Position numbers and translations under genes: made by a program. 64,000 bases of DNA from Neelides folsomi (lineage: Eukaryota > Arthropoda > Collembola > Neelipleona > Neelidae): assembly GCA_034687125.1 (NCBI GenBank), contig JAQGBZ010000026.1, positions 310,001 through 374,000 of the forward strand, in the 5' to 3' direction. Position 1 is the first letter of the stretch. Every line of letters starts with the position of its first letter. The notes beneath the pieces are model-generated. The model saw only the letters and a program-made list of their open reading frames with translations. It had not been told where the DNA came from and did no database searches. Of the stretch, positions 3,001-31,116 are shown in pieces.

Positions 3001-6000
3001 TTTTCATTCTTCTCCTATGAGAACTTAAATAGGTACTCGTACTTTAGATGCATATACCAAAGATGCATATACCTTGGTACGACTGATAGTTATAATAAGT
3101 ATAAAGTATAAAGAAAGCACTGTAGAATATTTATGATATTCGCTATATATAGGAAAGAGTAGAAAAATACAGTATTTAGTACAATGTTAGGAGAGTATTG
3201 AGAAAGGTGGTATGGGTCGTAAAGGCGGGATTGAATGAATTGGAAGACTGGTGATAGTTAGGAGGAGCATTAGTTAGAGTGTGGCCCGTTTTTCACTGTT
3301 GGAATTCATGTTTCAGCTTATGCTTCCTCCTCTAATCGTGATTAATATGGGACATTAGGGAACCGAAAGGGAGCCGAGTGATCAACATCCAGAGGAAACA
3401 TCTCTCTCCAAATTTCTCTTTTTCTGAGTGAGTGAGGTGTGGGAGGACCAAAGGGATCCGCCTCATCTCAACTTCTCATCTCTCACCCTTTCAATTCGCA
3501 AAATTATTCCTTTACTCATTTAGATTTTAATCCACTTCAATTCCTTCTCATTCCGAATATTCCCACTGTATTTTCCTTCAAATCCCATTCCGCATTTTCC
3601 ATTCCTCATTTTCCCCAAGCTTGCATACCTAATAAATATAACCTTTATGTAAGATGTGGAACAGATCAGAAGATTTTTTAGGGTAGGAAAAACATTTGAG
3701 CAGATGGAACATTCCTGAAAAGTTTTTCCTCTCATATTTTATTTAAAGGCTTCCCTCATTTCCGATCTGCCCCACATTTCAATCAAATTTGTTTTGGGAG
3801 GCGGAGGGCTCAAGCGGGAAGGATTAGGCGGAAAGCATTAAACTTTACATTAAACATATCTGTGAAAAATTAAATTTATACTCCGGAAAAAGATCCAAAG
3901 TGGAGCAGTGGGCTGAATGTTTAAAACCCAAAAATTAAATTTTCACACAAAATTAAAACTTTTCGGAACTTTTCAGTTTACTGTCAAGTTTCAACTTCTG
4001 TAAAGCTATAAGCTGACTGACTTCCAGTGCTACATAAATGGTATATGTCTGTATTACATAAAGTCCTTGCTGGTTATACCATATATTTATGGGTAGAGGT
4101 AATAATGAATGGGCGGGAAAGAGCGAAGTGAAATATAACACGGCGTTTTATATGAAATTGCAAAGCTTTCGTCATTTGGACTTTGGCCAAAGGCTGAAGA
4201 GTTGGGCGGTGAAAGCATTTTTCTTTTCACAAATCCGCCCATTTCGCTTCACGATCGGGTCGAATAAATTTTGATCCGCGATCAAAGGTACTTCAACTAT
4301 TCCTTTGGCTCGGAAATTTCAATAGTTTTCTCCCAAATTGAATATAGCATTACTCCTCACATTACTCCTGAAGGTGCCTTAAATCACTTCCCTTTGGCCT
4401 CAACAGTTTTACAATAATTGAATTTGAACAAAATATGTTTCAAATCCCATGTTTGGCCACACGATTTTTGACATTTAAAATGGACCAGTGGGGCTCAATG
4501 GTTCGTCACATAATTCAGGTTCATATGGGGTCACATATAAAATTATATAATCTTCATTATTGCATTACTTCATTTGGGTCATAAATCTTGGAAATGTCAT
4601 CGTAGGAAAATTGAATGTTTTTTCACGAGGAAAAGTCATCGGATTTGAAGGGGCCTGGCCGTTTGTTCATAGATTTATTACCGACATTTGGAGTTTTTGG
4701 ATTTTCGTTCGAGGTGCCACGAGGTTGAAAAAGGAGGAGAACAAAAGAATTGAGTGAAATAAGGGCTTTTAGGAGGAATCTTAAAAGATATTGGCATTTT
4801 TGCCCGTTTTTCTCTTATCCTATTATACTAGTTTATTTGGGTGCCAGGAGGGAGAAAAGATTTGCTTTTTTGGCACTCAAGTCTTTTAATGTGTGAGGGT
4901 TTTTCTCCAGGGTGTGGGTGTATGTGTTATTCGGAGCTGTTCTTCCGAGTTCTATCCGAATCGGAGTCTTTGGGGGTTTTGAGAGTGGAGCGGATATGCC
5001 GGTAGGAAAAGGAAGCATGTGGGGAGTTGGAGGTCCACTTTGTAGGAAACGACGACACTTTTCCCACGGAACATCTCCCACATAAATTTTTCAAGGAGAG
5101 TTATGGTAATGTTTAATGTGGAAGCGGAGGAGAGGGAGAATTTTTAGAAGTGGTAAAGTCAATCCTGATCCTTCCTCAGGGAAAATACCTTCTTTTAAGA
5201 CCAGAGCATTTGAAGAATCCGCGAACCCTGGAGGAAATTTGGGCATATGATGAAAAGCAGAGAATACATAAGATAGTTAAGAAGGATACATAAGATGCAT
5301 TGAGATGCAATAAACATAAGGGATGCATAAGACGTACTTATAAGGTGATATATGTAGATTCATTGTCATGTTGTGAGATGGAGTGTCAAAGGGTAAATGG
5401 ATGCTGAACAGTTGCTCATAGGAGAATTTGGGAATTTGAGTGGTGAAGTTGGATGAGTGGGGAAAATGGTGGAGGAAGATTCTTCCCCATTACCATCTCT
5501 CAATCTGATGGAAATTGAGTTAAAAGAAGAGCCTTTGAACTTGAGGAAAAACTCATGTCAAGATCAAGCACCAATCGACTCACTTTTTATCAAAAGAAGG
5601 AAAACACCAGAAAACACTTCGTTTTTTACACAACATTTTAAAACATGAACTTGTCAAATTTTTTATTTCCTTTAAAACTCTTCTTTATTCGACTCGAGCT
5701 CAATTTATTCAAAGATTTTTTTTGCTAAATGAGAAAAGTTACTGTCATTTACTTACTACATAGTAGTACAACAAGATTGCTGGAAGAGAATACGACATAC
5801 TATAGAAAAGTACAAGTATAGTAGTTTCTTATATTCTTAGTTAGAATGTTAGTTAATTTAGTTAGTTGGTTAGTTAGTTAGATAAGTTAGTGCAGTGTCG
5901 TGGAATATGGTGGAAAATGTGATTTAGTGAGAAGAAGGGGGATGCAAATTAAATGTGGAATGATTGGCCCAATGTGCAATGTGCATGGAGAAGAAGTCTC

Positions 6001-9000
6001 GGGGCGGGTGTGGAAATCTCAAGGGAACTTATCCCTTACCCGTTTATTGAAAGAGGCCAATTACGTCCCAATCAGTAGAAAAGGGGGGAGAGGAAATGAT
6101 TATGAAAATGGAATAGGGAATGCCCTTATTAGGCTCCCGCTATTCTTCTAACTAAAACTTCACATGGTCTTCTAGGTTCTTCCTAAACTTCCTAACTCTC
6201 AACGTCCGAACCAAATCATTCATTCACCTATACAAATAACCCGGGTATTTTATCTGTATTATAGAGCCACTATTGGTTGTATCAGTATTTATAAATGTAT
6301 GGTATACTCTTCATATGAAATTACTGTACACGTATTCTACTGTAGTCATATTGTATAACATATCGGATAGGGATTTTCCCCTGGCGTTCTTCCTCCCCCC
6401 ATTCAATGAACAATCCTCCGGTTCTTGGTTTCATTAATATAAGAGAAATGAGAACGAGAGCCATAATATGGTTTTACAATTCAACTTGCGGGACCAAGGA
6501 GGAAACCGATGTGGGATTTGAGGGAATTTCCCCTTGCCCTTTCCACAAATTATGGATTACGTTTTATTAAACTCTCGATTCACTTCATCTGCTGGTACGT
6601 TGAGCAATTTTCATATCTTTCTCAAAACTTGTATGGGCTTAATAGAGAATTAAAATTTATAGAATTAATACAGGAGGGATAATGCCCATCATTTGGGGTT
6701 CATTTTGGGCTTGTAAGGGCTTAATACTTCAAGTTATGTGGGAACTAAATTATTTATATGAAATGTATGTATTAGATATATGTGAAATATGAAATGGAGT
6801 AATGCGCGATGTATAAAAGGAAAATGATTTCGTAATTAACATTCCTACTTCATAAAAACTTATCTCTAATCTCATCAGGTCCTCATTAAGTTGAAGTTTT
6901 GTGGATTCGCCAACTACCGGGTTATTTAATACGTTCAACAATTGTTAATTATGAGGGTATTAAAAAGAAACTTTCGTGGCTAAACATGCTTAAATATTTG
7001 ACTATCATTGCCGGCTAACAAACTCATGCTTGAAAATGTATTTTCACAATGAGCATCTGTATTTAACTCAATACAATATAATCAGGCCTTTTAACATTCA
7101 AGTATTTAATACGGCATTTAACTCGTTTATATTTTAATAATACTTTTAAAATATAGATATTTTTGAATCTTGTATAAACAAGATTTTTTGTAGTGCTTAA
7201 TGAAAATAATGATAATGACATTTTTAAAAGTTTTGAACATGTAAATGGAAGTAATTTTATTAGAAAAAATCACATTGTTTTACCAAACACGATCATTAAG
7301 AGAAATTTAAAAGAGCATTTGAATAAATTAGAAATGCAAGAAGAGTAAATGAATATGAAAGAGACAATTAAAGAAGGCGAAAGAAAAAGACATAGCGGAA
7401 GTTGATACTTCTTTGAGCCTCGTCGAGTCTCCCGTTTCCAATGGGGGAAAGAAAATATCAAAAAAATTATCATAAAATGTTCATTCTCCGTCTCCACATC
7501 TCATCCATGATGATGATGAGGGTGAGGTTGGGCGGGTGAGGGGCCGCCGCTGAGGAACTTTCTTCTTAACAACGACTGTCGGAATCAGGAGTTCACGGTC
7601 CATTTCGTCCCCTTCCTTCACTCCCACTTAAATCTTCACCAACCTCCTCCTTCAATAACATTTGCTTACACATCTCTTTATTCACTCTTAAAGACAAATA
7701 TTCTAAGATCACTCCAATTTTCACTTGCTTCATACATACAATATTAAATCAATATATAATAAGTATAAAAATAATGGTATTTCGAAGTCATTTAACTAAA
7801 TGTAATTATCAATTAATATCAATTGTTTTAGTTAACAAAATTTAGTAGATTAAACAATATTCGTCCGATTCACTTAAAACATTATATTATGGAAAATTAG
7901 CAAATATTCCCATTTTGGCCAAATTGGAAGAAAAACTGTATAACGTGAAAATGAGGTGAATTGAGCTTAATGGTAAAGTAAAAGTGAGCCGGGATTTTAG
8001 GCGGGAGGGAGAGTTTTAACTTGGCAGTTAGGAAAAAACCTCCCTGTTAATGGATTATGGATGGATGAAGTTAATGCATGGTGATAAAGATGCGGTCATG
8101 GAAGAAGATAGAGGATACAATAAAAGGGGTGGGAGTCAGCAGTGGATGAAGAGTGTCATTATCCCTTTCACGGTTCGGATGAAGGGAATCATCAAGAAAT
8201 CCTCCCTCTGCCCTTCCCTATAAACAAAGCAGTCTCTTATGATAAATATCCCAGAAATTGTCAAATGTTCAAACTTCCTTAATTCAATACCATGTATTAT
8301 CTATTCATAAACTCCATATCATATTATGCAACCAGGATATACCTTTATCTTTGTGTTGTACATTTGCATATCTTGGTTATATGAGTATAAGGATTATTAC
8401 ATGGTAGAATTGTAAAGAAATTTGATTATAGAATCATAAATGGTGAATCTTCTGTAATCTCGGCTCTTATGCATTTTGCATGAAAGCGGATTTTACCATC
8501 TTACTCCTCATAAAGATATAATTTAAAAGGGAAGAATTTCCAAGTTGTTATATTAAGTTATATGGCCCAGCATGGGATATAAAAACGAAGTGGGTCGTTT
8601 GGATGTGCATAAAATGACTTTCAACTTTAGAAGGTTGAAGAGGGGGAGTTGAGAAGTCTCAATTCGGCGTTCAATGGGAGGAATCCATGGGCTGTCAATC
8701 TCCATGTTGGAGGAATGGAGAAGGGGGATGAGTCAGAGATGGGAATGAGGGCAGTTGAGTGGAAGAGCGGAAAGATGGGCCGAAGGAATGAGCTTAGGAT
8801 GCTTCATTGCATCCCGGAGATCTCTTCCCATTGTCAAGGTAGATGACGGAATGAATGGATTAGAGAAGGAGGAAATGGGGAGAAGAGATCTCGTAATTCA
8901 CGAGGATTTATTAAACCCGCACGGAAGAGATTTCCACATAAGGAGAAAGAGAAGGATAATTTAATTTTAAATAGCCAATTTATTACTTCAATGGTACTTC

Positions 9001-27263: not shown

Positions 27264-27295
27264 CTTATTTTATGCATTGCCACCTCCCACGTCAT

Positions 27296-27470
27296 TACAT
27301 GTTATACCATTACCATATTATATATGATATGATTATGTTTATGTTTACTAACTTGACATTTCTTTGTGCATTATATGAACTTTAATGCTAATAATAAATA
27401 ATTAATGTTAATCACTTACTAATTCCAAAATACACCTAGTTCTTAAATCATGTTGAGTAAAGAGCATTTA
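27296..27470. repeat. Array boundary repeat, copy 1 (myotubularin 3' flank)
   Basis: This begins about 33 bp after the myotubularin stop. It aligns with 28074-28245 and, over its last ~100 bp, with 29597-29697. Shared landmarks are CATTTCTTTGTGCATT, TATGAACTTTAATGCTAATA, AATTCCAAAATA and TGAGTAAAGAG. The position beside the myotubularin gene suggests this is the ancestral copy. Confidence 0.8.
27393..27398 (+). terminator. Probable poly(A) signal of the myotubularin gene
   Basis: AATAAA about 130 bp after the TGA stop. It lies in the segment that is repeated between the units of the downstream tandem array. Confidence 0.5.
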
Positions 27471-27495
27471 TTCTTTCAATTTTATTGATCAAATC

Positions 27496-27998
27496 TCAAT
27501 GCATTTTCTTGCTATATATAGTGAAGTTGAGATTTCGACATCCAGGTCTCAATTGAGATTCTCTTTCTAGAAAAATTAGGGTATCTCCGACATTAGTCGT
27601 ACCCATTCTTGTTGATCCGACAACAAATTCCTGTGAAAAACGGGTTTTTGAGGCTCGGTACCCTCTTATCTGCAAAAAATAAATTAAATTCCTTAGGTAT
27701 CGGTTTAGTTACCAAATTTAAGCAAAAAATACAATTTTTTATTTGAGCATTTTTAATATTGTAGTATACCTATATTTTACTAAACAAAATGATATCGAAA
27801 TTGGTATTTTATATTTTTATTTAGAGTATTCGAGTAATTATAATAAAATAATAAAATAAAATTCTTACGTTTAAGATCCAGTGGTCAGCTTTCTGTATCT
27901 TCTCGAGAATGAAGTGCAACAGATTCTCATCTGGCTGGTCAGAAACGACTTTTAGACATATTATTCCAACAGCTTCGTATTCTCGCGGAATGACAGCA
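27496..27998 (-). CDS. Tandem-array unit 1: exons B and C only, no exon A or promoter found
   Basis: Two minus-strand exons are open and spliceable: B at 27998-27869 (phase 2 entry, 43 codons) and C at 27669-27496 (57 codons and TGA). B carries YEAVGIICLKV and LLHFILEKIQKADHWIL. C opens with IRGYRASKTRFSQEF. They align to exons B and C of unit 2; I count 24 of 43 identical residues in B. The acceptor region before B, TTTGTTAAAATAG, is nearly the same as in unit 2. No exon A lies between 27998 and the next repeat at 28074, so the unit is either a 5'-truncated duplicate or an alternative 3' cassette used by unit 2, whose exon A ends in the matching phase. I do not recognise the family. Confidence 0.55.
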
Positions 27999-28073
27999 CT
28001 ATTTTAACAAACGAAATTTATTCTACTTAGATTAATGTAATTAATAAGATACACAAGAAATATACACAGCGTT

Positions 28074-28245
28074 TACATGTAATACCATATTATATATAAT
28101 CAATGTTATATGTTTATGTATAGGTATGTTTACTAATTTTACATTTCTTTGTGCATTGTATGAACTTTAATGCTAATAATTAATGTTAATTACAAATTCC
28201 AAAATAAACCTTGTTCTTAAATCTGAGTAAAGAGAATTTTTATTT
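28074..28245. repeat. Array boundary repeat, copy 2
   Basis: A diverged copy, with small deletions, of the myotubularin 3' flank (27296-27470). It separates unit 1 from unit 2 of the tandem array. Confidence 0.75.
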
Positions 28246-28262
28246 CATTAGGTTTATCAAAC

Positions 28263-29342
28263 TCAAATTTCCTTGTTAAAAATGAAAAAATTCAATGTGC
28301 GAGGTCCTAGTCCCAAAAGAGATTCTGTTGGAATGGAAATGAGAACTTCGCTGACATCACTTCTATCCATTTTAAGTGATCCTTCTACAAAATCCTCAGA
28401 AAATCTCGTCTGGGAGGAAGAGTATCCTCTTATCTACAAAAAATAAGTAAAATACAAACTATTAAAAAGTGTTATTTGTTTAATATGTTTTAATACCAAT
28501 TTTATACTACTATTTATAATACTATGTAGTACCTATATTTTACTATATATACAAAAAGATATTTATCGAAATTGGTTAATCTCATTTAATTATAAAATGA
28601 TTCGTTCAATATTTTTATTTGGAGTAATTAGAATAAAATAACATTTCTTACCCTCAACTGCCAATGATTAGACTTTTCGATCTTTTCAAGTAGAAAATGT
28701 CGCAAATTCTCTTCCGGCAAGTTTGAAGCTACTTTTAATTTGATTACTCCGATAGCTTCGAAACCTCGAGAAGGGACACCGCTATTTTAACAAACAAAAT
28801 TTATTCTCCTTAGATTGATAAAGATACATACATTCTCCATTGCTACCAATTTAGGCGATACTTTTAATCTCACCAATTTCTGGAATTGCTTGGTGTGATT
28901 AAAATTAATTGAGTGAATGAACGAATTGGGTATATGTATAGTAAATTATAAGTAAATAATATTTTAATAATAAATATTTTTAAAAATATTTTTAAAAAGT
29001 AACATTAAAATTATTTTAAAAAACTTACTTATAGAAGGTATGGTGCAAAAAGGGAGAAAAAATCGACGTTCTTTGCACCTTTGGAACTCCTTCGGTGGCC
29101 TGTAGCTCGAGATTTTTTCGTGATGATTTCGCTTCTCCAATGCTTGGCCTCGGGGGCTCTCCACTCGATGCTGCTTTCATGTCGTCTTTTAACTGACTTA
29201 AATTGTCGTCTGAGAAGTTTGACCATTCTAGTTGGAATTTGATTTTATTCAAGAATATTAATTTCGTTATCGTTAAATGTAGATGAGGGATGAGTTCAGA
29301 AGGAGTCATTTCTTTCAAATGCAAAATACGTAGACATTCCAT
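28263..29342 (-). CDS. Tandem-array unit 2: protein of unknown family, three exons
   Basis: Exons A 29342-29029, B 28781-28652 and C 28433-28263 (TGA) join in frame to about 204 residues. The start MECLRILHLKEMTPSELIPH lies 68 bp downstream of a TATAAATA box, and an in-frame stop lies upstream. Residues 1-~50 are identical to unit 3. The rest of exon A (through SIFSPFLHHTFY) is strongly diverged from unit 3 but keeps the exon length (314 nt). B contains FEAIGVIKLKV and LRHFLLEKIEKSNHWQLR. C starts IRGYSSSQTRFSEDF. I see no signal peptide, membrane span, zinc ligands or catalytic motif, and I do not recognise the family. A shared signature across the three units is HWxLx followed by IR(G/A)(Y/F)xxSxTRF or close variants, split by the B/C intron. 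Confidence 0.75.
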
Positions 29343-29596
29343 AAAAATGTGAGCGAAGTTCTCATTCTCTCCTCCATCGAAGCTGGACCAAATCCTTTCA
29401 AACCCTTTTTATTTATATCATTTTATTTTTGGAAGTGGAGGGGGACTTTGTGCACCCAAAGATAGACTTTTAAGCAAAGAGAAAGTTCACAATAGTGTGT
29501 GATGCGTTCAAAAAGCATGGTGAATGAAATGAGTTGATTCACAATATTTGAATGAAATACATTTAAATGGAAGAGATAAACAGATAGGAAATAGTG
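29194..29596. repeat. 403-bp near-identical block, copy 1 (promoter and first ~50 codons of unit 2)
   Basis: Compared base by base with 30714-31116 (constant offset 1520). The only difference I find is at 29590 (a) versus 31110... in the shared string cagatagg(a/g)aatagtg, so 402 of 403 match. The left edge falls inside exon A, at the codons after NLSQ, and the right edge about 250 bp upstream of the ATG. Sequence outside both edges differs. Confidence 0.92.
29410..29417 (-). promoter_or_regulatory. TATA box of unit 2
   Basis: TATAAATA on the minus strand (tatttata on plus), 68 bp upstream of the ATG at 29342, a spacing that allows a start site and short 5' UTR. An identical box is at 30930-30937 in the duplicated block. 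Confidence 0.55.
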
Positions 29597-29697
29597 ACAT
29601 TGTATGAACTTTAATACTAATAATGTTTATCACTTACTATACAATTCCAAAATACACCTACCTAAAATCATGTTGAGTAAAGAGCATTTTTTTTAAC
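29597..29697. repeat. Array boundary repeat, copy 3
   Basis: A partial copy of the myotubularin 3' flank (TGTATGAACTTTAATACTAA, AATTCCAAAATACACCTA, TGAGTAAAGAGCATTT). It abuts the right end of the 403-bp block and marks the junction between units 2 and 3. Confidence 0.75.
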
Positions 29698-29740
29698 CCC
29701 AAATTTTATTCTTCCCTTGGCATATTGATTGCTTAGACAT

Positions 29741-30862
29741 TCAATTGCTTACATATTTCATTAAAATGCAAAAATGAAGAATTCGATCTCCGGTCCCCGT
29801 GAATTCTTCATCATTTGTATACACCAGTACATCTTTTAGACTTGGGTTAGTATTCATTCGACACTCTCCAAATACTGTTGAGCGGGCGAATCTGGTCTCC
29901 GAAGTGAAAAATGCCCGTATCTATAAATATTTAAATAATACACAATATTTTAATAATATTTAAAACTAATAGAGTATAAAAATTCTACCTCGTTTCTAAC
30001 AAAAATTCCATGGAGAAATTGAACATTTTCTCATATCTTTACATTTAAACTTAATTTATTAAAACGTTAATATAAACTTGAGACAGTAACAATAAATTAC
30101 AACCAGACAACAACAACAATCACAAACATACACATTCAAAATACTATACTACTAATTACTACTACTACTATTACTATACTACTAATTTCAAAATTCCACT
30201 AATTCTTACTTTGAGAATCCAGTGGCTAGAATATTGAATCTTTTCAACAATAAAGTTGAACGGCTCGTGAACCCTCAGACTTATAGTTCCAACAGTGACG
30301 TATCTCGGCGGAATAGTACCACTAAAAATAAAAGAAAAAAATATTATTAACAGTATAATATAATTATTTGATTACAAATATAATTATTGACAATTTTTAA
30401 TATGTAAAGAGGTTAGACGTTATGTGTTCATGAATGTACAATTCCCAAACCACGCTTTTAACAAATAACATTGTATAACATGTTATATACAAAATATGTT
30501 AATTGTATTATATCATATTATTCCTATAAATTTTTTTTGAAAACTTACTGGTAAAATGAATGAACAAGAAAATCCGAAAACGGAGTGGTTTGCGCGACTT
30601 CTGGAACCCCGTTGTTGAGAATTAATTCATGGTTGTGGCGAGTATATTTCACTTTGGATGAACTACTAGGTTGGCGAAGATCTTCCATTGTGTGTCGTTT
30701 GATAAACTTCTTTTGACTTAAATTGTCGTCTGAGAAGTTTGACCATTCTAGTTGGAATTTGATTTTATTCAAGAATATTAATTTCGTTATCGTTAAATGT
30801 AGATGAGGGATGAGTTCAGAAGGAGTCATTTCTTTCAAATGCAAAATACGTAGACATTCCAT
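29741..30862 (-). CDS. Tandem-array unit 3: protein of unknown family, three exons
   Basis: Exons A 30862-30549, B 30321-30210 and C 29920-29741 (TGA) join in frame to about 201 residues. The first ~50 residues match unit 2 exactly and the upstream sequence is the 403-bp duplicate. After NLSQ the sequence diverges (KKFIKRHTMEDLRQPSSSS), then shows a weaker shared block (GVPEVAQTTPFSDFLVHSFY against GVPKVQRTSIFSPFLHHTFY in unit 2). Exon B is six codons shorter than in units 1 and 2 but keeps the ending EKIQYSSHWILK. C starts IRAFFTSETRFARS. Its start codon lies about 430 bp beyond the Pde11 stop on the same strand. No known domain recognised. Confidence 0.75.
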
Positions 30863-31116
30863 AAAAATGTGAGCGAAGTTCTCATTCTCTCCTCCATCGA
30901 AGCTGGACCAAATCCTTTCAAACCCTTTTTATTTATATCATTTTATTTTTGGAAGTGGAGGGGGACTTTGTGCACCCAAAGATAGACTTTTAAGCAAAGA
31001 GAAAGTTCACAATAGTGTGTGATGCGTTCAAAAAGCATGGTGAATGAAATGAGTTGATTCACAATATTTGAATGAAATACATTTAAATGGAAGAGATAAA
31101 CAGATAGGGAATAGTG
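30714..31116. repeat. 403-bp near-identical block, copy 2 (promoter and first ~50 codons of unit 3)
   Basis: Partner of 29194-29596, 402 of 403 bases matching in my line-by-line comparison. It contains the ATG at 30862 and the TATAAATA box. It ends abruptly at 31116, before sequence belonging to the Pde11 3' end. Confidence 0.92.
30930..30937 (-). promoter_or_regulatory. TATA box of unit 3
   Basis: TATAAATA on the minus strand, 68 bp upstream of the ATG at 30862, within the 403-bp duplicate. Confidence 0.55.

Follow-up and report, generated by a model that had tools for sequence, protein, structure and literature searches.

A 64,000-nucleotide stretch of the Neelides folsomi genome (assembly GCA_034687125.1, contig JAQGBZ010000026.1, positions 310,001 to 374,000; hereafter, the window) contains three units on the minus strand, flanked by a myotubularin-like gene on one side and a phosphodiesterase gene on the other. 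The explanation that we consider best, at roughly even chances, is that they belong to a small family of three-exon genes in which one part was copied recently between members. A gene of this family would consist of a head, comprising the promoter and the N-terminal segment, and a tail, comprising exons B and C. We refer to the units as headless, middle and distal, corresponding to units 1, 2 and 3 of a preliminary description of this DNA.

The two neighbours match Pfam families Myotub-related (PF06602, plus strand) and PDEase_I (PF00233, minus strand), which bears out, at the family level, the flanks named in that description; the final small stretch of phosphodiesterase exon gave no Pfam match. 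The three minus-strand units had also been reported to share an exon B and C architecture and splice phases, and this was confirmed, because all five introns in the window are GT..AG, with A/B introns in phase 2 and B/C introns in phase 0. Identical phases occur at both introns of a relative on contig C15 (see below). The signature HWxLx followed by IR[GA][YF]xxSxTRF was recovered in each of the three units, and the middle and distal units are indeed complete, with three exons apiece. From their promoter, splice and poly(A) signals, together with the constraint described below, these two are predicted to be expressed, in keeping with the earlier view that they look expressible; AATAAA motifs are found 31, 19, and 10 and 24 bp past the stops of the three units. 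Translation of the complete units may instead begin at a second in-frame ATG, which lies 11 codons upstream in both (30862 in the distal unit and 29342 in the middle unit); protein lengths are counted here from the ATG whose context is common to the C15 gene.

Features of the three-unit locus, in window coordinates (aa, amino acids)
Feature	Positions	Strand	Remarks
Distal unit, head block	30714–31116	−	Upstream region, TATA-like core promoter (30924–30944), 5′UTR and exon A bases 1–116; 402/403 identical to 29194–29596
Distal unit, exon A	30549–30829	−	Start codon at 30829
Distal unit, exon B	30210–30321	−	GT–AG; entered in phase 2, left in phase 0
Distal unit, exon C with stop	29741–29920	−	190-aa protein in total
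Middle unit, head block	29194–29596	−	Core promoter at 29404–29424; 402/403 identical to distal block
Middle unit, exon A	29029–29309	−	
Middle unit, exon B	28652–28781	−	
Middle unit, exon C with stop	28263–28433	−	193-aa protein in total
Intron 1, remnant of 3′ end (acceptor region)	27999–28036	−	35/38 identical to the end of intron 1 in the middle unit
Headless unit, exon B	27869–27998	−	Frame continuous with that of both upstream copies of exon A
Headless unit, exon C with stop	27496–27669	−	
3′ flank of the three units	27290–27495, also 28073–28261 and 29598–29692	−	78 and 79% identical copies

Blastp comparisons gave E values of 3e-63 (middle–distal), 1e-34 (middle–headless) and 1e-17 (distal–headless), indicating that the similarity among the units is far above chance. 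Their proteins had been described as about half-identical, which holds on average (48, 51 and 40%) but masks a mosaic of near-identical head and diverged tail. The head block of the two complete units spans 403 bp, made up of 287 bp of upstream sequence and 116 bases of exon A with the first 38 codons, and contains a single mismatch, at 31109. Past this block, identity between the distal and middle units is 51% over the remainder of exon A, 49% in exon B, 49% in exon C and 52–53% in the introns, against a baseline of 0.43–0.51 mean identity for shuffled sequence with the same aligner; the proteins encoded by exons B and C are 34% identical. The upstream edge of the middle head block falls at about 29597, where the 3′ flank of the distal unit ceases to resemble the other flanks. 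These are thus constrained, homologous neighbours in which one tract is far more alike than its surroundings, and the simplest history is that, in an old array, the head passed from one complete unit to the other a short time ago, in either direction, through gene conversion or a partial duplication. In principle, an assembly error could also account for the pair of near-identical heads.

The 3′ flanks are another similar region, with 71–78% of the aligned bases identical in gapped global alignments, and a genome search returned no further copies beyond these three places. At 78–79%, they resemble one another more closely than do synonymous sites in the preceding exons. Either a conserved 3′ element or conversion may account for this likeness.

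The headless unit (27496–27998) lacks exon A and has neither its own start codon nor its own promoter; its exon B contains no in-frame ATG. Upstream of this exon lies the 3′ flank of the middle unit, and between the two are the 38 bp left over from intron 1. Splicing to either exon A would give an open frame of 194 codons, and no stop interrupts the 100 codons of its B/C frame. We simulated 100 silent codons, with 2000 runs per neutral substitution level, and the probability of finding no stop was 0.42, 0.20, 0.11 and 0.057 at 0.05, 0.1, 0.15 and 0.2 substitutions per site, and 0.0225, 0.0055 and 0.003 at 0.3, 0.5 and 0.75. Since the frame is open and this probability is low at long divergence, the unit was constrained for most of its divergence, although the loss of its head may be recent.

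The headless unit could accordingly be a fresh pseudogene, that is, a once-complete gene that lost its head recently and is now silent, the rest of the history being as in the best explanation; we regard the chances of this as evenly balanced. The absence of exon A and promoter, with only the intron 1 remnant left, agrees with such an origin, and the simulated values at 0.05 and 0.1 substitutions per site are compatible with a recent loss, whereas those at 0.3 and 0.5 are incompatible with a long silence and the acceptor region is unusually well preserved (35/38). Splicing from an upstream head, which would make the headless unit a predicted alternative 3′ end, is a tentative reading that we place somewhat short of even chances, recent pseudogenisation being at least as likely.

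Tails are old and yet constrained. Because synonymous sites are near saturation, pN/pS values for exons B and C are rough; with bootstrap 95% intervals, they were 0.43 (0.32–0.59) for middle–headless, 0.58 (0.45–0.75) for distal–middle and 0.59 (0.45–0.77) for distal–headless. Ratios against the C15 gene were 0.73 (0.59–0.91) for the distal, 0.81 (0.66–1.00) for the middle and 0.66 (0.53–0.83) for the headless unit, and are weak evidence, with one interval reaching 1.00. A codon-position test was below 0.05 in two of five pairs, with p values of 0.014 (middle–headless), 0.048 (distal–middle), 0.071 (distal–headless), 0.13 (distal–C15) and 0.087 (middle–C15); headless–C15 was outside these five. 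The units are very probably real protein-coding genes. The preliminary description had held that lack of selective constraint would speak against the family, and the ratios among window pairs instead point to purifying selection; its term fast-evolving is supported as well.

The family had been presented as a tandem array at one locus, but it is not confined there: contig C15 carries one intact relative together with a decayed copy. We searched the 75.1-Mb assembly (840 contigs); copy counts are lower bounds. The middle protein, the distal protein and the 403-bp head each found the C15 locus as queries, and a blended B/C query recovered the window units only. The C15 gene (locus L024; exon A 3308–3591, exon B 3935–4061, exon C 4237–4425) is open and encodes 199 aa. 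Used as a query, its protein found the exon A of the window units and the decayed copy, which carries stops and lies at about 6740–7470 of locus L022. Overall identity between C15 and window proteins is about 30%; in exon A, it amounts to 16/33 in the head, 4–5/38 in the linker and 12/22 in the motif that ends the exon, and in the tail to 10/42 and 11/40 in exon B and 9/52 and 12/53 in exon C. The parts best kept between loci are therefore in exon A and not in the tail signature. Another copy of the closing part of exon A, now decayed, lies within intron 1 of the C15 gene (L024 3631–3708; tblastn E 0.002, one stop). Beside this gene are two further tandem genes (L024 720–2415 and 5117–6861), which, judging by motif, we take to resemble wax-ester-synthase/DGAT-type acyltransferases. 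The assembly also includes a mitochondrial contig of 15,157 bp, on which Pfam identified COX1; its frames, read by eye, carry ND2, COX1, COX2, ATP6, COX3, ND3, ND6 and CYTB on one strand and ND1, ND4 and ND5 on the opposite one. Also by eye, a stretch resembling tRNA-Leu(UAA) separates COX1 from COX2; ARAGORN, run with the bacterial code, returned no tRNA. This arrangement is the gene order established for hexapods and crustaceans.

Despite the low protein identity, the core promoter of the C15 gene has the same bases as the window units at 28 of 28 positions; in the decayed copy on the same contig, the core is imperfect. The 21-base core occurs in three exact copies in 75 Mb, all within the family, and within the window its two matches compare with 0.06 expected. 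This common core suggests that the members may be expressed together. A wider regulon defined by the promoter was considered and rejected; allowing two mismatches added ten sites, as compared with four control matches.

Family proteins have about 190–200 aa (about 22 kDa), a pI of 8.0–9.1 and 0–2 cysteines each. The maximum 19-residue hydropathy is 0.82–1.09, so no membrane segment is indicated, and no signal-peptide-like start was evident. Structure models were made for single exons: in that of exon A, from a two-sequence alignment, residues 3–48 form one long helix with block means of 71–93 (mean pLDDT 64.3), and that of exon C shows two strands and a short helix (mean pLDDT 49.7); models of this kind are too poor for a fold search. 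The product may be a soluble intracellular protein with the tail as a fast-diverging, putative binding module, an assignment that we hold only a little less probable than its opposite.

The preliminary description had recognised no domain in these proteins and had proposed sensitive profile searches. Searches of Pfam, NCBIfam, PHROGs and PDB profiles gave no credible relative, with best E values of 0.034, 0.056, 0.051 and 1.1, all at chance level, and the surveyed papers name no such family. The family may therefore be an orphan, as the suggestion of lineage restriction in that description implied, the absence of relatives extending over these four collections and one IMG/VR scan. It had also held that a match to a common transposon or repeat protein would refute the family, and none was found in these searches; the low copy number also argues against a transposon. 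An origin of the units from a transposon, repeat or virus appears highly improbable. Repeats are indeed called to mind by the 403-bp copies with their single mismatch and by the resemblance of the non-coding flanks, but the genome searches, whose counts are lower bounds, yielded few copies (those in the window, the single C15 gene and a single decayed copy) rather than many dispersed ones, the 3′ flank was matched only at the three window units, and the introns have conserved phases. As for viruses, there was no PHROGs match of note, and, of the 68 candidates that one peptide pattern retrieved in an IMG/VR scan, none was a relative.

We consider it improbable, although slightly less so, that the tail is a far-diverged SIAH/TRAF-like domain, whose RING and zinc fingers were lost, within an expanded SIAH-like set of this genome. 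Its likeness to the TRAF-like domain of SIAH/Sina proteins (PF03145) consists in a strand pattern that is similar by eye and in the fact that five SIAH-like genes carry a phase-0 intron close to the matching strand (acceptors in 5/5 and a clear donor in 4/5, also by eye); however, the intron positions are about five residues apart in the alignment, and the family tail differs in having neither a significant score nor a RING or SIAH zinc fingers. Against a profile of 11 SIAH-like last exons, the four family exon C sequences scored −2.1 to 0.0 bits, the best of 4000 shuffles reaching 8.3, and the reverse search gave at best 0.2 bits among the 10 of 11 that were listed, the best of 4400 shuffles reaching 12.7. 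The hhalign probability was 0.31%, or 0.09% with a longer version, and PF03145 matched three places in the genome, none of them at family loci. Membership among the SIAH/Sina E3 ligases was likewise rejected, the proteins failing to match the TRAF-like domain profile, having few cysteines and giving no RING or zinc-finger match in Pfam. The idea had arisen in part from 15 genome matches to the SIAH zinc-finger family PF21361 (loci L056–L070), two of them over the cut-off. By eye, most of these loci contain RING and SIAH zinc-finger-like exons, and their C-terminal domains are strongly diverged; the set is possibly a lineage-specific expansion.

Under the history that we prefer, that of a three-exon family with recent copying of the head, tandem and partial duplications would have enlarged the array until it held a pair of complete genes plus a B/C unit without a head. 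In the very recent past, one complete unit would have received the head of the other, through gene conversion or a partial duplication, so that promoters and N-termini that hardly differ now precede tails that are old and divergent. Members would be co-expressed through the promoter core common to the window and the C15 gene, and the headless tail would either be joined by splicing to an exon A further upstream, serving as an alternative 3′ end, or be what remains after recent loss of its head. A stricter version, judged from sequence, is rather unlikely: a locus of constant head and variable tail in which near-identical heads were converted, old tails were constrained and the headless tail would be expressed only by splicing.

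The finding is real, its domain is unrecognised and its kind is already known, namely, a fast-evolving, partly converted tandem gene family. It offers a clean, small case in which promoter and N-terminus were homogenised while tails diverged to saturation, together with a headless unit for which fresh pseudogene and alternative 3′ end are the two readings, and it adds one unannotated gene family without a recognised domain.

Two known systems are comparable. In a Schistosoma japonicum family, distinct lineage-specific genes share a core promoter and protein start, with duplication as the proposed source (PMC3434034). Promoter core and protein start are similarly common to distinct genes in both, but the Schistosoma family involves 34 contigs, with a signal sequence and with repeats at the flanks, whereas the N. 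folsomi family has few loci, homologous tails and no repeat dispersal shown. Partial and chimeric duplicates, as treated in a review (PMC3449122), arise when breakpoints within a gene produce copies without some parts or with exchanged parts. The N. folsomi units likewise lack or swap gene parts; they differ in that the two tails are homologues of long standing and the head alone is new, a combination as compatible with conversion between units already present as with partial duplication.
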